IMG/VR virus record: IMGVR_UViG_3300013126_000031
Span: 1 to 64,000 of that record
Source of the DNA: a virus
DNA length: 64,000 nucleotides
Strand: one strand, 5' to 3'
The first letter of the stretch is position 1. Each line of letters begins with the position of its first letter. Shown piece after piece: positions 1,667 through 64,000 of this stretch. Below the pieces are notes generated by a model. That model made no database searches. It saw only the letters and a list, made by a program, of their open reading frames with translations, and was not told the DNA's origin. A program made the translations under genes and the position numbers.

Positions 1667-1842
1667 GTAACCGAAGATAGTTTTATCGGGAATCTGGGGC
1701 TGTATCACTACAGTGCTTCACACGCCATTAGAGAGTCGGGTTGTTACATCAATACAGTTATGTTAGATTGAAGACCTATCCTTAGTGTGTACCCTTGCGA
1801 CACGTCTCTCCACGTCTACTATCCTACGCTTTTTTCGGTTAC
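1667..1842 (-). ncRNA. Structured RNA closed by GTAACCGAA/TTCGGTTAC stem
   Basis: The ends pair as GTAACCGAA with TTCGGTTAC, and then GATAGT with ACTATC. Inside, GAGAG...GTCG...GGGT pairs with ACCCGACTCTC, and CTGTA-GTGA-TACAG forms a hairpin. It lies 4 nt from the tRNA at 1589-1662 and is probably co-transcribed. It is not tmRNA, SRP RNA or RNase P RNA by any motif I can see. Function unknown. Confidence 0.5.
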
Positions 1843-1851
1843 TATTTTTTT

Positions 1852-2313
1852 TTAGATTACTTCAATGTAATCACATTTAGCAAATACTTTACCTAACCCT
1901 TGGATTTTAGTTAAAGATTTTTCTGTTAATGTTCTTTTGTAAACATGGTCGTTATCAATCACTCTTTCAAAAGCGTTTGCACCATAAAAAAGTTTACCAT
2001 TAATCAATGTTTCGTTGTTCTCTGTTAAACGATTGTACAATTGAGATGTCAATTCGTTTTTCTTAATAACAGCAACTTTAGTAAAATTGATTGTTAACTT
2101 TGTGTTAGACTTAACACTAGGTTTTGTAATTTTGTTAGCTTTAGTAACATCAGACTTTAAAAAATCATTTGATACTTCACCTTTTCTTTTCATTGCTGCT
2201 AACACACCAGCAAAAGTCATTGTAGGCACACCTAATTTAGTAGCCATTTCAGCGTTAGTTAATTTGTCCCCTTTTTTAAGGATGAACGATTTGATTTGTT
2301 TAGAACTTTTCAT
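1852..2313 (-). CDS. Small helix-turn-helix protein
   Basis: The reading frame opens at 2340, but the -7 box TACATTTG lies at 2342-2350, so the methionine at 2313 (MKSSKQIKSF) is the better start. Residues 1-50 look like a winged or helix-turn-helix domain (LTNAEMATKLGVPTMTFAGV, then LAAMKRKGEV). The C-terminal 90 residues are basic and unrecognised. A DNA-binding or regulatory role is inferred from the fold pattern only. It has its own host-type promoter. Confidence 0.75.
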   Translation of the reverse strand: MKSSKQIKSFILKKGDKLTNAEMATKLGVPTMTFAGVLAAMKRKGEVSNDFLKSDVTKANKITKPSVKSNTKLTINFTKVAVIKKNELTSQLYNRLTENNETLINGKLFYGANAFERVIDNDHVYKRTLTEKSLTKIQGLGKVFAKCDYIEVI

Positions 2314-2393
2314 ATTTATTTTTGTTTTTAAATTTAACATTGCAAATGTACTAACTATTTTTTATAGTTGCAAATTTTTTTTAACATTTTTTT

Positions 2394-2555
2394 TTAATCT
2401 AAATAAATGTCATGATATACAATAGCATATGCATTAATCATCGCACCTATTTCAAAATAATAATTAAACATAGCCTTACTACGTGTATGTTCTAACATAC
2501 TGATTACATAATCGGCAAGAATCTGTAATACTTTTATTTTAAGTTCTTTTTTCAT
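2394..2555 (-). CDS. Small hypothetical protein, 53 aa
   Basis: ATG at 2555 opens MKKELKIKVLQILADYVISM and the frame ends at TAA 2394. The product is mostly helical with a central aromatic patch (MFNYYFEIGAMINAYAIVYH). A host-type -7 box TACATTTG lies directly upstream at about 2560-2568. Family not recognised. Confidence 0.65.
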   Translation of the reverse strand: MKKELKIKVLQILADYVISMLEHTRSKAMFNYYFEIGAMINAYAIVYHDIYLD

Positions 2556-2578
2556 AATACAAATGTACAATTAAAATT

Positions 2579-2758
2579 TTACTTTTTCAAATCTTCTCTT
2601 AAATTTTTATTAGCTTTTGTGTGTGCTGGGTTGAAAGGGCAATGTCTACAACCGCTTCCGCAGCATATCCCTCTTTTTTTAAGATAATGTTCTGTGTATA
2701 TAATTTTACCTTTTTCCAAGTAATAATCAATACCTTCTTCAAAACTAAATTTTTCCAT
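2579..2758 (-). CDS. DUF5522-like cysteine-rich small protein
   Basis: A 59-residue protein with the motif RGICCGSGCRHCPFNP, which matches the short CCGxxCxxCP zinc-type family known from Bacteroidota (DUF5522). The likely start is 2758 (MEKFSFEEGIDYY). That ATG begins one nucleotide after the discriminator base of the tRNA-Ala gene, so the message is probably exposed by tRNA 3' processing. Metal binding is inferred from the cysteines; the biochemical role is unknown. Confidence 0.8.
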   Translation of the reverse strand: MEKFSFEEGIDYYLEKGKIIYTEHYLKKRGICCGSGCRHCPFNPAHTKANKNLREDLKK

Positions 2759-2759
2759 G

Positions 2760-2833
2760 TGGAGTAGATGGGAAACGAACCCACCACAGATTGCTTGCAA
2801 AGCAGTCTCGCCAGCCTTGGTACATGCTACCCC
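2760..2833 (-). tRNA. tRNA-Ala(TGC), unusual D-arm
   Basis: Acceptor GGGGTAG/CTACTCC, anticodon arm ACTGC-TTTGCAA-GCAAT with anticodon TGC, T-arm GTGGG-TTCGTTT-CCCAT. The D-arm is irregular: CCA-AGGC-TGG rather than the GCTC/GAGC type. CCA is not encoded, and the next gene's ATG begins almost immediately. Confidence 0.75.
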
Positions 2834-2839
2834 AATTAG

Positions 2840-2911
2840 CGGTCCCGAAGGGAATCGAACCCTCATCTTCTGATAGACAGTCAGACATCGTAGCCATTGG
2901 ACCACGGGACC
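2840..2911 (-). tRNA. tRNA-Asp(GTC)
   Basis: Acceptor GGTCCCG/CGGGACC, anticodon arm TCTGA-CTGTCTA-TCAGA, T-arm GAGGG-TTCGATT-CCCTT, discriminator G. The gene is 72 nt without encoded CCA. Confidence 0.9.
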
Positions 2912-2915
2912 AAAT

Positions 2916-3058
2916 AAAACATTAAGTTACACAATTTGTCCTACACCAAACTCAATACTTCGAACAAATCCCTTCAACTAACTAATCGTTTGGTTCTTTC
3001 GTTAGTCTCCCCTATTTAAGGGTTAGAAGCCTACCAGTCTTACCTCACTTAATGTTTT
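2916..3058 (-). ncRNA. Structured RNA closed by 12-bp AT-rich stem
   Basis: AAAACATTAAGT at one end pairs perfectly with ACTTAATGTTTT at the other. Inside are CCCT/AGGG, CTAAC/GTTAG and ATTTGT/ACAAAT helices, giving a multibranched RNA of about 143 nt. It fills the space between tRNA-Asp and tRNA-Glu exactly. The same arrangement is seen at 1667-1842 and 23979-24075. It has no recognised family motif. Confidence 0.55.
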
Positions 3059-3059
3059 G

Positions 3060-3133
3060 TCACCCGTATGGGATTCGAACCCATGCTCTTCTCCGTGAAA
3101 GGGAGACGACTTAAACCGCTTGTCCAACGGGCG
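3060..3133 (-). tRNA. tRNA-Glu(TTC)
   Basis: Acceptor CGCCCGT/ACGGGTG, D-stem GAC/GTC, anticodon arm TCTCC-CTTTCAC-GGAGA, T-arm ATGGG-TTCGAAT-CCCAT. No encoded CCA. Confidence 0.9.
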
Positions 3134-3139
3134 TTACTT

Positions 3140-3215
3140 TGGTGGGACGGGAGGGATTCGAACCCCCGACACTCGCATCTTCAGTGCGATGCTCTACCAA
3201 CTGAGCTACCGTCCC
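3140..3215 (-). tRNA. tRNA-Phe(GAA) with encoded CCA
   Basis: Acceptor GGGACGG/CCGTCCC, D-arm GCTC/GAGC, anticodon arm TCGCA-CTGAAGA-TGCGA, T-arm GGGGG-TTCGAAT-CCCTC, then ACCA. It is the first gene after the array promoter at 3226-3259. Confidence 0.95.
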
Positions 3216-3225
3216 ATTTTGTTAA

Positions 3226-3259
3226 TACAAATGTATGAACTATTTTTTAATTATCCAAA
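3226..3259 (-). promoter_or_regulatory. Host-type promoter of the first tRNA array
   Basis: On the minus strand TTTGG (-33) is followed after about 19 nt by TACATTTGTA (-7), the Bacteroidota primary sigma consensus. The tRNA-Phe 5' end is 11 nt downstream. It probably drives the genes down to about 2579. Confidence 0.75.
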
Positions 3260-3276
3260 TTATTTTGTATTTTTTT

Positions 3277-3918
3277 TTAATTAATTTCTTTTAACCATAA
3301 ATTATAAGGATAAAAAGCTTCCATATATTTTATATAACCACTTTCTTTATTTCTAATCTTACTTTCCCATGAGTTATACTTTATCGTATAATACCATAAC
3401 TCTTGTCTAGTCCAATTTAATTTATTCTCCACATATTTTGCAACTTGATATCCAGTTCTATCAGCACCATGTGTGCAATGTATTAAAACATGTCCGTTTT
3501 GTAATAGTGGTTGTATTTGATTTAATGATTCAACATAACCCTTTCCTTTTACATAACCTAAATGTGCATTAACCCAAACATATTTAACACCCATGCTTTC
3601 AACTAAGTGTTTTTCTTGCTCTGGTGATACGTTTGTAGTTTCTTTAGCATTCATTCTTATGACGGTTTTAATATCATACGTTTTCAAAATCGCTTCCATT
3701 TGTTTTAAAGATGGTTGCGAACTTCTAAAAACATAATTACCCCCAGGCACCGTATCAAAGTTTTTCGGTAAATTAGTTATCCTAACAAAATGATAAGTAG
3801 TATCTTTTATTTCCACTTTAACAACTTTGGTAGTATCAACCAATTCTACTTTTTTATCAACAGATTGACTAGAGCATGCTGTTGAAATCAATAACCCAAT
3901 AAAAATAAATTTCTTCAT
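3277..3918 (-). CDS. Lipoprotein with tyrosine/dual-specificity phosphatase domain
   Basis: The likely start is 3918 (MKKFIFIGLL), giving a lipoprotein signal peptide with lipobox STAC about residue 15-17. The rest has the phosphatase P-loop HCTHGADRT (HCxxGxxR) with a preceding FRSSQPS segment typical of dual-specificity phosphatase-like proteins. It should act in the periplasm or at the outer membrane, where phage enzymes of this type are unusual; a superinfection or envelope role is possible. A host-type -7 box lies at 3938-3946. Confidence 0.8.
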   Translation of the reverse strand: MKKFIFIGLLISTACSSQSVDKKVELVDTTKVVKVEIKDTTYHFVRITNLPKNFDTVPGGNYVFRSSQPSLKQMEAILKTYDIKTVIRMNAKETTNVSPEQEKHLVESMGVKYVWVNAHLGYVKGKGYVESLNQIQPLLQNGHVLIHCTHGADRTGYQVAKYVENKLNWTRQELWYYTIKYNSWESKIRNKESGYIKYMEAFYPYNLWLKEIN

Positions 3919-4003
3919 AATCTTAAATTGTTTATACAAATGTAATAACAATTTTTTAATTATCCAAATTTTTTAACTAATATTTCAAAGAACTTAAATA
4001 AAA

Positions 4004-4029
4004 AAAGGTTGGCGTTTCGGCCAACCTTT
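4004..4029 (-). terminator. Terminator of micro-ORF unit 1
   Basis: Minus-strand hairpin AAAGGTTGGC-CGAAAC-GCCAACCTTT followed by a T-run. It ends the short transcript from the promoter at 4191-4223. Confidence 0.85.
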
Positions 4030-4053
4030 AAATCAATATCGTTAAACAGTTTG

Positions 4054-4143
4054 TTAACTTTTGACATGAGTTGACCTTCCTAGGCTAAAATCGGCCTCGG
4101 CTGCAAAGAAATCAAACTCAAATATGTTATTAACTGTTTTCAT
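4054..4143 (-). CDS. Micro-ORF 1, 29 aa
   Basis: ATG at 4143 opens MKTVNNIFEFDFFAAEADFS and ends at TAA 4054. It sits alone between a very strong host-type promoter and a terminator, and shares its leader (ATATTTAATATAAAAA then ATGA) and first residues (MKT/MRT) with the units at 6066 and 26216. It may be a peptide, or the transcript may act as a small RNA. Confidence 0.5.
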   Translation of the reverse strand: MKTVNNIFEFDFFAAEADFSLGRSTHVKS

Positions 4144-4190
4144 CGTTTTTATATTAAATATATTGTTTTTTCTAAAAATTCAATTTATAC

Positions 4191-4223
4191 TACAAATGTA
4201 CAACATTATTTTTAATTTGTCAA
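4191..4223 (-). promoter_or_regulatory. Strong host-type promoter, micro-ORF 1
   Basis: TTGACAAAT (-33) and TACATTTGTA (-7) with normal spacing on the minus strand. The same two boxes recur almost unchanged at 6187-6219 and 26362-26394. Confidence 0.8.
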
Positions 4224-4241
4224 GTTTTTTTTGTTTTTTTT

Positions 4242-4892
4242 TTATTTTCTTATACCACTTAAAAAATCTTTAGCATTGTTAAAACCAATAATACCAATTA
4301 TTTGTTTTAAAAAACTATTTTTATCTTTAACATTACTTTCTTTATATTTGTTGATGAGATTCACAACTTCTTGTTCTTTTTCTCTACCCAACTTTGTTTT
4401 ATAATCAGCAACATCTGCCATGTTCATAAAATAATACCCATTTATAAAATCAGCATCTTTTAATATTTCATTTGTTGACCTAACTTTTACATCAGCATAT
4501 CTACCACTAGCTTTTTCTGGTGACCAAAGTGTGAATGCTTCAATACTACCATCTTGTGTCGGTCTGTAAATACCACCATTTTTCAATTCTTCTGTTAATC
4601 CAGCTTGAACCCAAAGTTCTTCGTTAGGTATTACAATATCTAAATCTCCAATAGTTCCAGTCAACCCAAATGCATCTCTTAATTTAGGATACAAATACAA
4701 TCTAGCTGAACCAGCAATAAAATAAACTCTATCTTTTGGGTTTATTTTAAATTTTTCAAATATAATTTTGTTAGCTTGAGATAACAATGAGTCTAAACCA
4801 CCACCATCAACTTCATCTAACAAATCTTCACTTACTTGAGACCAAAATTCTTTTAAAAAGAATTCTTTAATGTAAATCTCACTTAATCTCAT
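4242..4892 (-). CDS. Nucleotidyltransferase-fold protein
   Basis: The middle of this 216-residue protein reads FIAGSARLYLYPKLRDA followed by GTIGDLDIVIPNEE. The GSAR helix followed by a DxD strand is the usual pattern of the pol-beta type nucleotidyltransferase fold. The substrate is unknown; antitoxin or nucleotide-modifying relatives are alternatives. The N-terminus (MRLSEIYIKEFFLKE) again has an amphipathic LxE pattern. Start overlaps the end of the next gene upstream by 14 nt, so the two are co-transcribed. Confidence 0.65.
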   Translation of the reverse strand: MRLSEIYIKEFFLKEFWSQVSEDLLDEVDGGGLDSLLSQANKIIFEKFKINPKDRVYFIAGSARLYLYPKLRDAFGLTGTIGDLDIVIPNEELWVQAGLTEELKNGGIYRPTQDGSIEAFTLWSPEKASGRYADVKVRSTNEILKDADFINGYYFMNMADVADYKTKLGREKEQEVVNLINKYKESNVKDKNSFLKQIIGIIGFNNAKDFLSGIRK

Positions 4893-5202
4893 ACTTTTTT
4901 AATTTTTTTAACACTTCTTTATTGTAAACGTTTTCCAATGTTAATGGTTTAAATGATAAATACATTTGTTTAGGGCTTGGTCCTTTCAAAAACAAAAAGT
5001 TATATGCTGACCATTCACTAGTTAAATAATATCCATTCTCATTTTTCATCTTATCAAGCAAACACTCTGGATTTTCATTGATATATTTCCAATCATATTT
5101 GTTACACATTTTACTAACTTTACTTAAAAAGATTCTTACTTCAAAGTATCTTGCTAGTAATAAAAAACAAATACCCCACATTACCATCGTTAACGTTATC
5201 AT
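4879..5202 (-). CDS. Small membrane-anchored protein
   Basis: The better start is 5202 (MITLTMVMWGICFLLLARYF), which follows a host-type promoter (TTTGG and TACATTTG near 5224-5250). One N-terminal transmembrane helix is followed by about 80 mostly polar residues. It overlaps the nucleotidyltransferase-like gene downstream. Function unknown. Confidence 0.65.
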   Translation of the reverse strand: MITLTMVMWGICFLLLARYFEVRIFLSKVSKMCNKYDWKYINENPECLLDKMKNENGYYLTSEWSAYNFLFLKGPSPKQMYLSFKPLTLENVYNKEVLKKLKKYEIK

Positions 5203-58938: not shown

Positions 58939-58963
58939 AAAAAAGGGTTAAAAACCCTTTTTT
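58939..58963 (-). terminator. Terminator of the sigma factor gene
   Basis: Minus-strand AAAAAAGGGTTTTTAACCCTTTTTT overlaps the last codons of the sigma gene. Confidence 0.8.
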
Positions 58964-59792
58964 ATTCGTTAATTAAATCATACAAATCATGTGCATTATG
59001 CCTCAATTTTCTGATTGCTTTTTCTTTTATTTGTCTAATTCTCTCTTTCGTTAATCCGTATCTTTCACCAATCGCTTCTAATGTCATTGCTTCACAATTA
59101 GTATCGATACCAAAATAACATTGAATTATGGTTCTTTCTCTATCATCTAAAATAGAAAGAGTTTTGTTTAATTGATTTTTTATTCTCTCATCTATTTCTA
59201 ATCTATCTTCATCTGGAACTTCACCAGCTATTAAATCAATTAATTCATCACCTTCTTCATTAATGTGTTCATTTAATGATGCACATCTTTGATTTTTAAG
59301 CAAAATAAATTCTATTTCATCATCCGTAAGTTCAGTATCCATTGGTTCTCTTTCGTTAGCGAATTCAAACTTAGAAATTTCTTTGTTTAATTTTGAAATC
59401 TTATTGATAACATTTGCTGGTAATCTAACCATTCTAGCGTTATCATTTAAACTTTGTAATATCGATTGTCTAATCCACCACACAGCATAAGATATAAATC
59501 TAAAACCTCTTTTATGGTCAAACCTAGTAGCAGCCTTTACAAGACCGTAATTACCCTCACTAATTAAATCTGATAAAGGTAACCCTTGTCCTTGATATTC
59601 TTTTGCTATTGAAATAACAAATTTCAAATTAGCATTAACTAATTCTTCAATAGCTTTTTTATCACCGCTTTTTATTCTTTTAGCCAATGAAGCTTCTTCA
59701 TTAGAAGACAAGGCTGTGGATTTTCTTATATCTTTAAAATATTTTGTTACACTATCCTCTGAATCAAAATTTACATATTTTTTATTCATCAA
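58962..59792 (-). CDS. RpoD-type sigma-70 factor
   Basis: 276 residues, typical for Bacteroidota primary sigma without region 1.1: region 1.2 at 12-45, region 2 with ANLKFVISIAKEYQGQGLPL, DLISEGNYGLVKAATRFDHK and FRFISYAVWWIRQSI (-10 binding), region 3, and region 4 with AIGERYGLTKERIRQIKEKA (-35 binding). All regions are intact, so it can direct host RNA polymerase. Whether it reads the TAnnTTTG or the ATATTTATA boxes cannot be told. Confidence 0.95.
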   Translation of the reverse strand: MMNKKYVNFDSEDSVTKYFKDIRKSTALSSNEEASLAKRIKSGDKKAIEELVNANLKFVISIAKEYQGQGLPLSDLISEGNYGLVKAATRFDHKRGFRFISYAVWWIRQSILQSLNDNARMVRLPANVINKISKLNKEISKFEFANEREPMDTELTDDEIEFILLKNQRCASLNEHINEEGDELIDLIAGEVPDEDRLEIDERIKNQLNKTLSILDDRERTIIQCYFGIDTNCEAMTLEAIGERYGLTKERIRQIKEKAIRKLRHNAHDLYDLINE

Positions 59793-60461: not shown

Positions 60462-62705
60462 TTATTTCATTGAAATTTTTGAGATGTTATTATTCCCCTT
60501 AACCACAGTCACTACATTATCACCCCAATCTTTGACCAAATCATTGTGTGTAATGAAGAATACAATCTCATACATATCTTTTATTTTATCAAAAAGTACT
60601 TTCAATTTTTCTAGGTTTTCTGGGGCCACTTTACCTAACACTTCATCAAATGTTATAAAATTTGGCATAGGTAATGTTGATAATTTACCTAATACCGCTC
60701 TTAACGCTAAACTGGCAGCAGTTTTTTCTAACCCAGAACCAGATTTAAGTAATTTAGAGACCTCATCTTTAACCAATAAAAATTGAACATCGTTCTTATC
60801 ATTAATAAATATCTCAACATCGAAATCTACAACCTCATCTAACAATCTTTGTACTTCAGAATTTATAATTGGTAATACAGAACGCAACACTAATTTACTA
60901 ATACCTTTTTTACCAACTAATTCAATATAAGTTTTAAATATTTTATCTATTTCTTCTTCTTTTTTAATAGTTTCGATAAGTTTTGTTTTGGTTTCAATAC
61001 CAGATTTATGATTTTTTATTTCTGTTTGAACCCTTTCAATTTTTGTAATCGTGTCATCTTTAGTATGTTCCAATACTGAAAGTTTAGTTTTAACGTTGGT
61101 TATTTCAATATCAATCTTTTTGTTTAACTCGATTGCATCTAAATTAAGTTTGTATTTTTTCAAGTCATTTCTCTTTTCAACTATTTTATTTCTAAGAGAA
61201 CCAATCTCAACTTCTAATCTATCTTTAGCAAGTTCCAATTTATTTTTTTCGTCAACTAATTTTTTTGTGGTGTTAAGTTCATTTAAACCTTTTTCTAAAT
61301 CCTCTTTAGTGTCAGTCAACTGATTCATTAATAAATGAATTTCATGTAATTGCTTAGAATGTGTTTCTATGTGTTCAGTATTATCAACATCATCTAATTT
61401 TCTGTTACATGATTGACATATACCACCAGCAACTAAATCTTCAATAACCTTGTCAATTCTTTTGTATTCAGCATCATTCAAAGCTAAATCAGTATTAGTT
61501 TGGTTTAATTGTTTGGTCCATTCAAAATGCGTGTCCTCATCAAAAACTAATACACCAATTTCATCTATTTTGGTTTTAAGTTCCTTAACATCATCAGCCA
61601 AACTAGTACCTTTTTCAGTTATTTTTTGAATGTCGCTTTCTAATGACTCTGGGTTTAATTCAGAAATGGTCACATCTATTTTTTCTTTACTGTTAATTAA
61701 CGTTTCTTTTTCAGTGGTTAATTTTGTAATATCTTTTTTAGTCGTTTCCAATCTTTCATTTAAAGACTTTTCTAGGTCAGCACATTCTTGTCCTTTTTCT
61801 TTATGGTCTTCAATTTCTTCAGTCAACGTAATAACATCATAGTCATTAGATTTTTTCTTTTTGGCAAACTCGTTATACATATCCCTAGCAGCCTTTTCTT
61901 TTAGTTCTAATATCTCTAACCCTATAAGTCTAGTTAACACTTTACCAGATTCAGTAGTAGTCAAACCAATTAAATCATCCAAATTCTTTTCAGTTGCCAA
62001 TACAAGCATCTCAAAATCTTTTTCACTACCAATAGTTTCTTTTAATTTTTTAGTTGTTCTGGTAGCATCTTCTTCATTTAATTGTTTTTCTTCGCCATCT
62101 GGTAATAATTCATAGTAATTAACTTTGTTAACAACAGTCCAACCACCACCTTTTTTGGTAGTTCTTTTCATTTTACGTTCAATTATTACTTCTTCACCTT
62201 CAATATCAATCATCCCTCTTACAACTAACTCATCTTTGTTACTGTATTGGTTGAAAATTTGCTCGTTTGTATCAGTTTTGGTTGTACTACCATGTAATAA
62301 GAATTTCATCGCATCGATAGTCATAGTTGTATTATGTGATACAATACCGTTAGTATAATATTGGTGAACTTCTGCTACTTGAATATCGTATAGAGTATCC
62401 TTAAAATCCATCAATTCAATAGATTTTATCCTACTTATACCATCAATTGTTTGTATTGGTAACCCTACTTCAGCTTCTTTTAAATGAATAAAATCACCAT
62501 TCTCGTGTTTTAATCTATGATAATCAGCACCCTCAACATACATCCCGTTTTCAAGTTCACATTTATAAACATCAGCATTTTCTTCAGTGATACCACACCA
62601 TTCAATATCTTTATACCCATAAGGTGTATCAACTTTAAAACCTAAATCCCCATATTTTTGGTAAATTTCATTTAATTCACCAATTGTTATTTCTTTTATA
62701 CTCAT
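60462..62705 (-). CDS. 46: gp46/SbcC recombination ATPase C-part with C-intein
   Basis: Residues 1 to about 124 are an intein C-terminal part: TIQTIDGISRIKSIELMDFK (HINT strands), then DIQVAEVHQYYTNGIVSHN, ending in the expected His-Asn before TT. The rest is gp46/SbcC/Rad50-like: second half of the Walker A region (TTMTIDAMKFLLHG), a coiled coil with zinc-hook CQSC, a SGSGLEKTAASLAL signature and Walker B FITFDEV. The N-terminal extein is encoded separately at 63773. With gp47 it processes DNA ends. Confidence 0.9.
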   Translation of the reverse strand: MSIKEITIGELNEIYQKYGDLGFKVDTPYGYKDIEWCGITEENADVYKCELENGMYVEGADYHRLKHENGDFIHLKEAEVGLPIQTIDGISRIKSIELMDFKDTLYDIQVAEVHQYYTNGIVSHNTTMTIDAMKFLLHGSTTKTDTNEQIFNQYSNKDELVVRGMIDIEGEEVIIERKMKRTTKKGGGWTVVNKVNYYELLPDGEEKQLNEEDATRTTKKLKETIGSEKDFEMLVLATEKNLDDLIGLTTTESGKVLTRLIGLEILELKEKAARDMYNEFAKKKKSNDYDVITLTEEIEDHKEKGQECADLEKSLNERLETTKKDITKLTTEKETLINSKEKIDVTISELNPESLESDIQKITEKGTSLADDVKELKTKIDEIGVLVFDEDTHFEWTKQLNQTNTDLALNDAEYKRIDKVIEDLVAGGICQSCNRKLDDVDNTEHIETHSKQLHEIHLLMNQLTDTKEDLEKGLNELNTTKKLVDEKNKLELAKDRLEVEIGSLRNKIVEKRNDLKKYKLNLDAIELNKKIDIEITNVKTKLSVLEHTKDDTITKIERVQTEIKNHKSGIETKTKLIETIKKEEEIDKIFKTYIELVGKKGISKLVLRSVLPIINSEVQRLLDEVVDFDVEIFINDKNDVQFLLVKDEVSKLLKSGSGLEKTAASLALRAVLGKLSTLPMPNFITFDEVLGKVAPENLEKLKVLFDKIKDMYEIVFFITHNDLVKDWGDNVVTVVKGNNNISKISMK

Positions 62706-63715
62706 ATCTTTAAAAATTCTCTACATTTATCTATTATTTCTTGTTTATTACCCCATCTATATTCAGAATCCCATATAACCATTACCTCAAAACCTTTTTC
62801 ATTTGCAAGATTTAATTTTTGTTTATCCTTATCCCACATTTCTTGTGCTGTTATGTTTTTTCTAAAAGGGTGGGGTTTTTCATAATTTTTATACTTTTTA
62901 GGGTTACCATGATAGTCATCACCATGATATTCAATTATTTTTTTATTTTTGGTATCAGTGAAGTCGTATAACCAAACACCACCTTCTTTTTTTTCTAATC
63001 CGAATTCTTTATTATGTGAACCAAAATAAATTTTATCTCTTTTATTAACATTATAAAATTCTAATAATTTATAGAATAATTCTTGTGATATTTTAGAATA
63101 ACCTATTTTTAGATTACCACCAGATGATAATGATTCGCCCCATTTAATTTGTCTATCAGTGAATCGTTTTTTTCCTTCTTCTTCACCATATTTTAGAATA
63201 CATTTTTCAAGGGTAAAAGTTGATTGTCGTTCTGACCTTAATTTTTTTGCTTCTTCTTCGGAGTAACCTTTATTTATCCAATATTGTAAATTAGCAGAAC
63301 CCCTTTTACCAGCTTCACTTCTTTTACTTTCTCTTTCTTCCCATATTTTGACACCTTCTTTTTCACCAAACCTAGCAATACAACCTCTTAATGAAACCAT
63401 TTTTTGTCCTTCTATTTGTAACACAGCTTCTTCTTCTGAATAACCATTTTTAATCCAATACTCAACATTAACTGGTCTTAATGTTTTAATATGTTCTTCA
63501 AATTTATTTTCATCTAACCCTCTCTCTAACCAGTATTGTTTTGAATACGGTGAACCCTTTGGTATATTAATACCTATTTTTTTCAACCTACTAACAATGA
63601 CACTAGGGTCAACTTTAAAAATTGTTGCTATATTGTTTGTCGATTCGAAATCTTCTTTATACATTTTAACTATATTATCAATTTCTTCATCAGTGAATTC
63701 TTTTCTTTTACCCAT
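62702..63715 (-). CDS. Free-standing homing endonuclease (EDxHD/Vsr-like type)
   Basis: 337 residues: an N-terminal HTH (FESTNNIATIFKVDPSVIVS), three repeats around YWIKNGYSEEEA, and a C-terminal nuclease domain with EYHGDDYHGNPKKYKN and VMVIWDSEYRW, as in endonucleases associated with fractured split-intein genes. It sits between the two halves of gene 46 and overlaps the second by 4 nt. Late-type box at 63729-63737. Confidence 0.85.
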   Translation of the reverse strand: MGKRKEFTDEEIDNIVKMYKEDFESTNNIATIFKVDPSVIVSRLKKIGINIPKGSPYSKQYWLERGLDENKFEEHIKTLRPVNVEYWIKNGYSEEEAVLQIEGQKMVSLRGCIARFGEKEGVKIWEERESKRSEAGKRGSANLQYWINKGYSEEEAKKLRSERQSTFTLEKCILKYGEEEGKKRFTDRQIKWGESLSSGGNLKIGYSKISQELFYKLLEFYNVNKRDKIYFGSHNKEFGLEKKEGGVWLYDFTDTKNKKIIEYHGDDYHGNPKKYKNYEKPHPFRKNITAQEMWDKDKQKLNLANEKGFEVMVIWDSEYRWGNKQEIIDKCREFLKI

Positions 63716-63728
63716 TTTAATTTTTATT

Positions 63729-63737
63729 TATAAATAT
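63729..63737 (-). promoter_or_regulatory. ATATTTATA late-type box
   Basis: Minus strand ATATTTATAAATAAAAA 14 nt before the endonuclease start; gives it a promoter independent of gene 46. Confidence 0.5.
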
Positions 63738-63772
63738 AACCGTTTAACCAGAAAGGTAAGGGTATTTGTTAA

Positions 63773-63967
63773 TCATTTTAATTCATCTGGTAAAAAACCT
63801 AGTTTTTTAATTATTTCATCTGAGTTATAAGATATATTTACCTTAGTGTTAGACCTAATACATTTACCACCTTGGTTTGCTGGAATAGAATTTACAACTG
63901 TTAAACCTCTTAGTTTACTAAATGGTAAATAATTATCTTCACCAAAAGATAAAAAGTTATTTATCAT
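63773..63967 (-). CDS. 46: gp46 N-extein plus short N-intein
   Basis: 64 residues. Residues 1-35, MINNFLSFGEDNYLPFSKLR and on to PANQGGK, are the N-terminal start of a gp46/SbcC-type ATPase up to the Walker A lysine. From C36 the sequence CIRSNTKVNISYNSDEI is a very short intein N-part (29 residues) with Cys1. Splicing to the C-part gives GGK-TT. The start overlaps the upstream stop (ATGA), so it is translationally coupled. Confidence 0.88.
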   Translation of the reverse strand: MINNFLSFGEDNYLPFSKLRGLTVVNSIPANQGGKCIRSNTKVNISYNSDEIIKKLGFLPDELK

Positions 63968-64000
63968 AACCCATTTAACACTCCAATGTCTGTGTTGCGT
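63964..64000 (-). CDS. C-terminal end of upstream gene (gp47-like?)
   Basis: The frame RNTDIGVLNGL ends in TGA at 63964 with an ATGA overlap to gene 46. In T4-like phages gene 47 (SbcD-like nuclease) stands here, so that is the likely identity, but too little is visible to check. Confidence 0.45.
   Translation of the reverse strand, partial: RNTDIGVLNGL

Follow-up and report, generated by a model that had tools for sequence, protein, structure and literature searches.

The virus record IMGVR_UViG_3300013126_000031 of IMG/VR is a fragment of 64,204 bp, of which positions 1-64,000 form the window analysed here; all coordinates refer to this window. On its minus strand lies a gp46/SbcC-type ATPase gene in two parts, with an open reading frame (ORF) of 337 amino acids (aa) between them. 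The gene is broken between the Lys (NQGGK) and the Thr (TT) of its Walker A motif, and both parts carry intein sequence at the break. On the sequence comparisons given below, the presence of a split intein in this gene is confirmed and well supported, and we consider it highly probable that a split intein associated with a homing nuclease explains the locus as a whole. Two known kinds of element are combined here, namely a fractured gene with a nuclease and an atypically split intein.

A preliminary description, made from the letters of the window, had proposed that the gp46 homologue is encoded in two pieces, the first ending at the Walker A Lys followed by Cys and 28 more residues, the second beginning with about 124 intein residues that end in HN before TT, and that an endonuclease gene separates them. 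The three ORFs were found where it had placed them, and 21 distinct alleles proved to be split identically. Translation yielded the expected N-terminal intein part (IntN) of 29 aa, while the C-terminal part (IntC) measured 125 aa.

Splice junctions and allelic states of the gp46 site

Viral contigs were scanned with the C-half of the gene, which gave 52 loci; loci from this and the other searches are cited below by number (L003 and so on). In about 40 homologues the match begins only at residue 126, where the C-extein starts, and the sequence continues uninterrupted through ...N-GGK into T[TS]..., so that both splice junctions are fixed by comparison with uninterrupted genes and not by motif alone. 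The closest intein-free homologue (L003) is 89% identical. After deduplication, the site is represented by 32 intein-free, 21 split (window included) and 2 contiguous alleles, and IntN is exactly 29 aa long in 20 of the 21 split ones, most of them ending in LPDELK.

A nuclease gene between the intein halves was also present in L034, L037, L050, L058, L063, L066 and others. Five split alleles have no complete nuclease: L004 retains the nuclease leader, in L186, 40 nucleotides (nt) similar to the 3' end of the nuclease gene remain, L180 and L181 each have part of a nuclease left, and in L027 the halves are 27 nt apart, with no clear nuclease remnant. The contiguous alleles L005 and L008 carry mini-inteins of 147 and 151 aa, whose identity to the window IntC is 82 and 85%, respectively. 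In the intein tree L005 groups with the nuclease-less L027 (93/80). The contiguous versus split character requires two changes on this tree, which alone gives no direction; the two contiguous alleles are read as re-fusions because all splits share one end point. In L034 (4575-4993), L037 (4793-5011) and L050 (4481-5002), the nuclease and IntC are separated by small extra ORFs that differ from phage to phage, which points to an accumulation of cargo genes in the fracture. The phage with the nuclease-less split gp46 intein, L027, also has an upstream gene (1019-2683) apparently containing a contiguous intein with an endonuclease-like region.

The window intein was probably gained recently. Its IntC is 91% identical to that of L034 (89% at the DNA level), whereas the C-exteins are 67% identical (70% for DNA), and at third codon positions the identity is 75.8% for IntC and 52.2% for the C-extein. 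The six nearest gp46 genes of the window are all intein-free. With intein similarity so far above extein similarity, and intein-free nearest genes, a recent horizontal gain is the simplest reading of these sequences. A co-conversion tract around the insertion was not apparent: close to it, the window exteins do not become clearly more similar to intein-bearing donors.

The features of the locus are listed in Table 1. The second-half ORF (62705-60462) encodes 747 aa; IntC takes up residues 1-125 and is followed directly by TTMTIDAMKFLL, and the IntC ATG overlaps the nuclease stop codon as ATGA. The frame of the N-half extends without a stop to the edge of the 64,204-bp record, giving an N-extein of at least 113 residues; position 63967 is merely its first ATG within the window. 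Since the N-halves of relatives measure 166-184 aa, the expected spliced product is approximately 790-800 aa, and the 36+620 residues initially proposed have to be abandoned (the N-extein being about 170 residues in relatives). A second, contiguous and intein-free gp46, whose presence had been named as a check on the idea, was not found in the whole 64,204-bp record, and ten related records searched whole (seven of more than 150 kb, eight with split alleles) contained one gp46 each.

Table 1. Features of the fractured gp46 locus in the window
Feature	Position	Strand	Basis or remark
N-extein, 3' part of the N-half, ending ...SIPANQGGK	63863..64000	(-)	Translation; intein-free homologues running into TT
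IntN, 29 aa, CIRSNTKVNISYNSDEIIKKLGFLPDELK, Cys1 and block A	63776-63862; with stop codon (63773-63775) 63773..63862	(-)	Translation
Leader, IntN stop to nuclease ATG	63716..63772	(-)	
Conserved leader element CTTACCTTTCTGGTTAAACGG, candidate operator	63740..63760	(-)	Near-copy, inverted and with altered centre, of the last 21 nt before the insertion site
TATAAATA, predicted T4-late-promoter-like motif, 17 nt upstream of the nuclease ATG	63725..63732	(-)	
Presumed homing-site half on the N-extein side, CCAGCAAACCAAGGTGGTAAA, extending up to the insertion point	63863..63883	(-)	
Putative homing endonuclease, 337 aa	62702..63715	(-)	Helix-turn-helix at ~4-50, YW..GYS repeats, Vsr/EDxHD-like catalytic domain at 205-337
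IntC, 125 aa, MSIKEITIGEL...YYTNGIVSHN, ending ...VHQYYTNGIVSHN	62331..62705	(-)	TIGR01443 above cut-off; PF14890 below
C-extein, 622 aa plus stop, starting TTMTIDAMKFLL	60462..62330	(-)	phrog_77, E=1.2e-43; uninterrupted homologues

Motifs, fold and selection of the intein

The residues of a class 1 intein are present, with Cys1, the terminal His-Asn (Asn125 of IntC) and Thr+1. All 9 aligned IntC sequences have the HN pair, and TIGR01443 matches IntC with 22.8 bits (cut-off 15.6). With 29 and 125 aa on separate ORFs, the two parts fit the atypical class of split inteins (IntN of about 15-37 aa, IntC of more than 100 aa) and do not have the canonical sizes (IntN of about 100-120 aa, IntC of about 35-50 aa).

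The preliminary description had also suggested modelling IntN with IntC for a HINT fold. The fold was modelled on the natural contiguous relative L008 using AlphaFold2, from an alignment that included sequences of the window and of relatives. The L008 model reached a predicted local distance difference test (pLDDT) score of 90.3 and a predicted template modelling (pTM) score of 0.78. Its best Foldseek match in the PDB was VidaL (E 8.1e-11), followed by gp41-1, NrdJ-1 and many others, the top matches all being inteins, and VidaL was also the top match of phmmer. The model thus gives the contiguous relative a confident HINT fold, and through it the same fold is supported for IntN plus IntC. In the L008 model, the split point maps to the loop that connects a helix (14-21) with a strand (31-33). 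The idea that it corresponds to the C2-related twin of the canonical nuclease site was rejected, as the strand pattern of the model puts that twin near residues 54-55.

Differences at the first, second and third codon positions amount to 0.32/0.14/0.46 in IntN and 0.21/0.14/0.43 in IntC, which indicates that both parts are under purifying selection although they are separated. A pseudogene or an assembly error is ruled out by these codon-position patterns together with the 21 distinct split alleles.

The nuclease and its family

In the model of the 337-aa protein, residues 205-337 resemble Vsr (1cw0, Z 11.2) and I-Bth0305I (3r3p, Z 10.0, 94 of 97 residues), and residues ~4-50 align with helix-turn-helix domains. 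The candidate active-site residues E262, D266, H269, D251 and D254 are invariant in 12 aligned members. A search of PDB sequences with the nuclease profile returned nothing credible. By its model, the protein would be a Vsr/I-Bth0305I-like (EDxHD-type) putative homing endonuclease. Its residues 1-140 are 70-80% identical to the gp46-located nucleases of L034 and L037 and 11-34% identical to ClpB-like-located ones, while the catalytic part (206-337) is 55-59% identical to the former and 71-77% to the latter. In a quick tree, the C-terminal parts from gp46 and ClpB-like host genes are intermingled. From these sequences, catalytic domains appear to have been exchanged between host genes while the N-terminal module stayed with the site.

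Scans with the nuclease as query resulted in 82 distinct relatives after deduplication, 69 of which are followed, within 2.5 kb and on the same strand, by an ORF that carries an IntC; for the other 13 no IntC was found within 2.5 kb. Nearly all of the IntC-associated members are short-N splits at the P-loops of gp46, ClpB-like, TerL and DnaB-like genes. The preliminary description was right about the short-N arrangement, as the 29/125 aa division shows, but not in calling it rare, since it is the usual form in this nuclease family. According to Pfam matches of representatives, the host genes encode ClpB-like AAA+ proteins (both Walker A sites), T4-type terminases, DnaB-like helicases, and RecA-like and Rad50/SbcC-like ATPases. 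IntN was identified at 60 loci and measures 15-58 aa; the N-extein ends in GK at 58 of them, a count somewhat biased because part of the search required GK. Distant members lie in canonically split polymerases, in L073 (850-1920), L088 and the cultured phages Aes123, CP21 and PTm1.

Several loci of the family deserve separate mention. The cultured Vibrio phage vB_VmeM-32 (L200, KU160494) has a gp41-like helicase gene fractured in its P-loop (1834-4906), with a 27-aa IntN, CFVAGEEIEVEMNEQTHQEYLRFKNEN, a nuclease of the same family and an IntC ORF; the short-N arrangement is unannotated, and the nuclease is annotated as a hypothetical protein only. The same phage contains a RecA-like gene interrupted by a SegG-like nuclease and a HintC part. 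In L067 (459-7405) both Walker A motifs of a ClpB-like gene are broken. Each break has a nuclease and a short-N split intein of its own, and assembly of the full protein would take two splicing events joining three polypeptides. The terminase gene of L071 (2489-5952) is apparently also fractured twice, the second gap containing a different ORF that resembles an HNH-type nuclease. In Caulobacter phage Cr30 (L197, 2614-5332) a family nuclease immediately precedes the gene for the large terminase subunit; no IntC was detected in Cr30 terL, and this nuclease is possibly a free-standing form.

The leader and its candidate operator

The reverse complement of the conserved leader element resembles the 21 nt that end at the insertion point (9-16 of 21 identical), the central GGN of the homing-site sequence being nearly always AAA in the element. 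When tested against 22-nt windows, the gp46 and TerL leader profiles and one DnaB leader matched the site better than all of the approximately 1526 other extein windows, with the best matches all in the same inverted orientation. One leader/site column covaries C/T in 17 of 17 loci, the sequences being related. From this analysis, we prefer to regard the leader as an operator that would mimic the homing site and allow autorepression of the nuclease.

It is also quite conceivable, if less attractive to us, that the likeness is due to chance or to an RNA hairpin. The profile match was not seen in the ClpB-like group, local alignments of leader to site at single loci were mostly not significant, and a permutation test of per-locus pairing over the whole site was not significant (p 0.56). 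The profile matches in one common orientation and the covarying position speak against chance, and a site-leader RNA duplex was rejected, as RNAalifold predicts none and covariation was not clearly above that of shuffles. Support for the preferred operator is moderate, since only the family profiles are significant and the ClpB-like group does not follow them.

A late promoter ahead of the nuclease is weakly indicated, because the exact TATAAATA is found there in just 4 of 14 gp46 loci. In the window (1-64000) this motif occurs 29 times, against 15.7 expected from shuffles, and a sigma-factor gene is located at 58962-59792; this excess and the sigma-factor gene make a T4-like late promoter system plausible.

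Comparison with known systems

Fractured genes with a nuclease gene between split-intein halves were reportedly described by Dassa and colleagues in 2009. Such genes share with the window locus a host gene split inside an intein and a nuclease ORF between the halves. Annotated examples include the Aeromonas phage Aes123 polB, with a 'putative VSR endonuclease' between its halves, and the polymerase of Tenacibaculum phage PTm1; both nucleases are distant relatives of the window nuclease. The polB gene of Pseudomonas phage MIJ3 is fractured with an HNH nuclease (PMC6892783). These annotated cases are split at the canonical endonuclease position, as in Aes123 (IntN 120, IntC 39; PMC11923092), whereas the window split lies in a different gene, at the P-loop, with an IntN of 29 and an IntC of 125 aa.

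Atypically split inteins have IntN parts of 25 aa in AceL-TerL, 37 in GOS-TerL, 30 in TerL CAT, 16 in VidaL and 15 in PolB16 OarG (PMC13014065, PMC11766414). They share with the window intein a short IntN, a long IntC and, in most, Cys1, and VidaL is the closest solved structure by both sequence and fold. Neither of these two papers describes a nuclease in their fractures, the gp46 gene and site are not among them, and Thr+1 sets the window intein apart from those listed. In the literature covered, which did not include Dassa 2009 or the source papers of AceL-TerL and VidaL, we found no description of a nuclease in a short-N fracture. According to Beyer et al. (PMC6801210), nested nuclease domains are confined to a single conserved position of the intein. 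A separately translated nuclease gene need not be subject to this constraint, which may explain why the short-N position is open to it.

I-Bth0305I, a group-I-intron homing endonuclease (PMC3943268), and Vsr share the catalytic domain fold with the window nuclease. In contrast to I-Bth0305I, the window family has other DNA-binding modules and sits in split inteins instead of a group I intron. The leader recalls I-TevI, for which autorepression is proven (PMC2988022), by a homing-site-like sequence directly upstream of the nuclease and near a late-promoter-like motif; operator and homing site agree at 15 of 20 nt in I-TevI and at 9-16 of 21 here. The candidate operator differs in being inverted, in belonging to another nuclease family and in accompanying a split intein instead of an intron.

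Proposed mechanism and alternatives

We propose that the gp46-like ATPase would be made as two polypeptides, each with part of an atypically split class 1 intein, and that these pieces would associate, excise the intein and join ...NQGGK to TTMTI..., which would re-form the Walker A loop. As the preliminary description had argued, only splicing would rebuild this loop, the break in the sequence lying between Lys and Thr. The Vsr/EDxHD-type nuclease would cut intein-free gp46 at the Walker A codons, and repair of the cut would copy the whole cassette (IntN, nuclease and IntC) into the intein-free gene. The candidate leader operator resembling the homing site may let the nuclease repress itself, as in I-TevI.

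Several observations weigh against this proposal. Three residues before the invariant His of block B (T-x-x-H) stands Ala and not Thr/Ser, although VidaL likewise has Ala at this position in the aligned segment. The PF14890 match remained below its gathering score, with only the C part aligning. The full-length nuclease model is moderate (pLDDT 76, pTM 0.41), its Foldseek E-values against Vsr and I-Bth0305I are weak (0.06-0.27), and Pfam gave no family above cut-off. In addition, the record is a fragment, and the finding of a single gp46 covers 64,204 bp of the phage genome, so that an intact gp46 may lie elsewhere in this phage.

The halves might instead act as a non-covalent two-subunit ATPase with vestigial intein pieces, as nuclease-split phage genes that need no splicing are documented in Aeh1 nrdA/mobE and T4 gene 60/mobA (PMC2988022). 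We regard this as very unlikely here, with a break inside Walker A, with Cys1, the block B His, HN and Thr+1 all kept, with strong purifying selection on both intein pieces, and with contiguous alleles that must splice in cis. Nucleases are also common in phage introns (PMC2988022), but an intron of group I or II in place of an intein can be practically dismissed: Rfam at a permissive threshold (E up to 1) gave no intron family match, on which ground this identity was rejected, the reading frame is continuous into Cys1 and out of HN, the intein models as a HINT fold and the mini-intein alleles are translated straight through.

A more substantial doubt, still improbable in our judgement, is that the nuclease is a degenerate passenger or a phage-exclusion factor. 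Its homing role is predicted from sequence and model, and the 13 relatives without a nearby IntC and the Cr30 nuclease, next to a terL in which none was detected, would suit such a function. The conserved candidate catalytic residues, the probable horizontal gain of the intein only, the N-terminal module that, unlike the catalytic domain, goes with the host gene, and the consistent placement of the nuclease inside inteins at many sites all favour a homing enzyme.

As a tentative wider reading, which we rate at slightly short of an even chance, Vsr/EDxHD nucleases would specialise in P-loop genes of large phages by means of inteins fractured near the N-terminus. They would combine host-gene-specific DNA-binding modules, exchanged catalytic domains and self-repression by a homing-site-like operator, and re-fusion to a mini-intein after nuclease loss would make splitting a reversible stage of the homing cycle.

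Significance

Short-N split inteins are valued for protein labelling, and the family supplies dozens of new natural ones. It also shows, for several families of P-loop genes, fractured inteins that house a nuclease gene at the short-N position, and the comparable arrangement in the gp41 helicase of the cultured Vibrio phage vB_VmeM-32 is open to direct testing. With empty, invaded, nuclease-decayed, nuclease-less and re-fused alleles at one site, the origin and fate of split inteins become testable. The interest of the gp46 locus lies in an arrangement that is widespread in its nuclease family and whose whole life cycle is visible at a single site.

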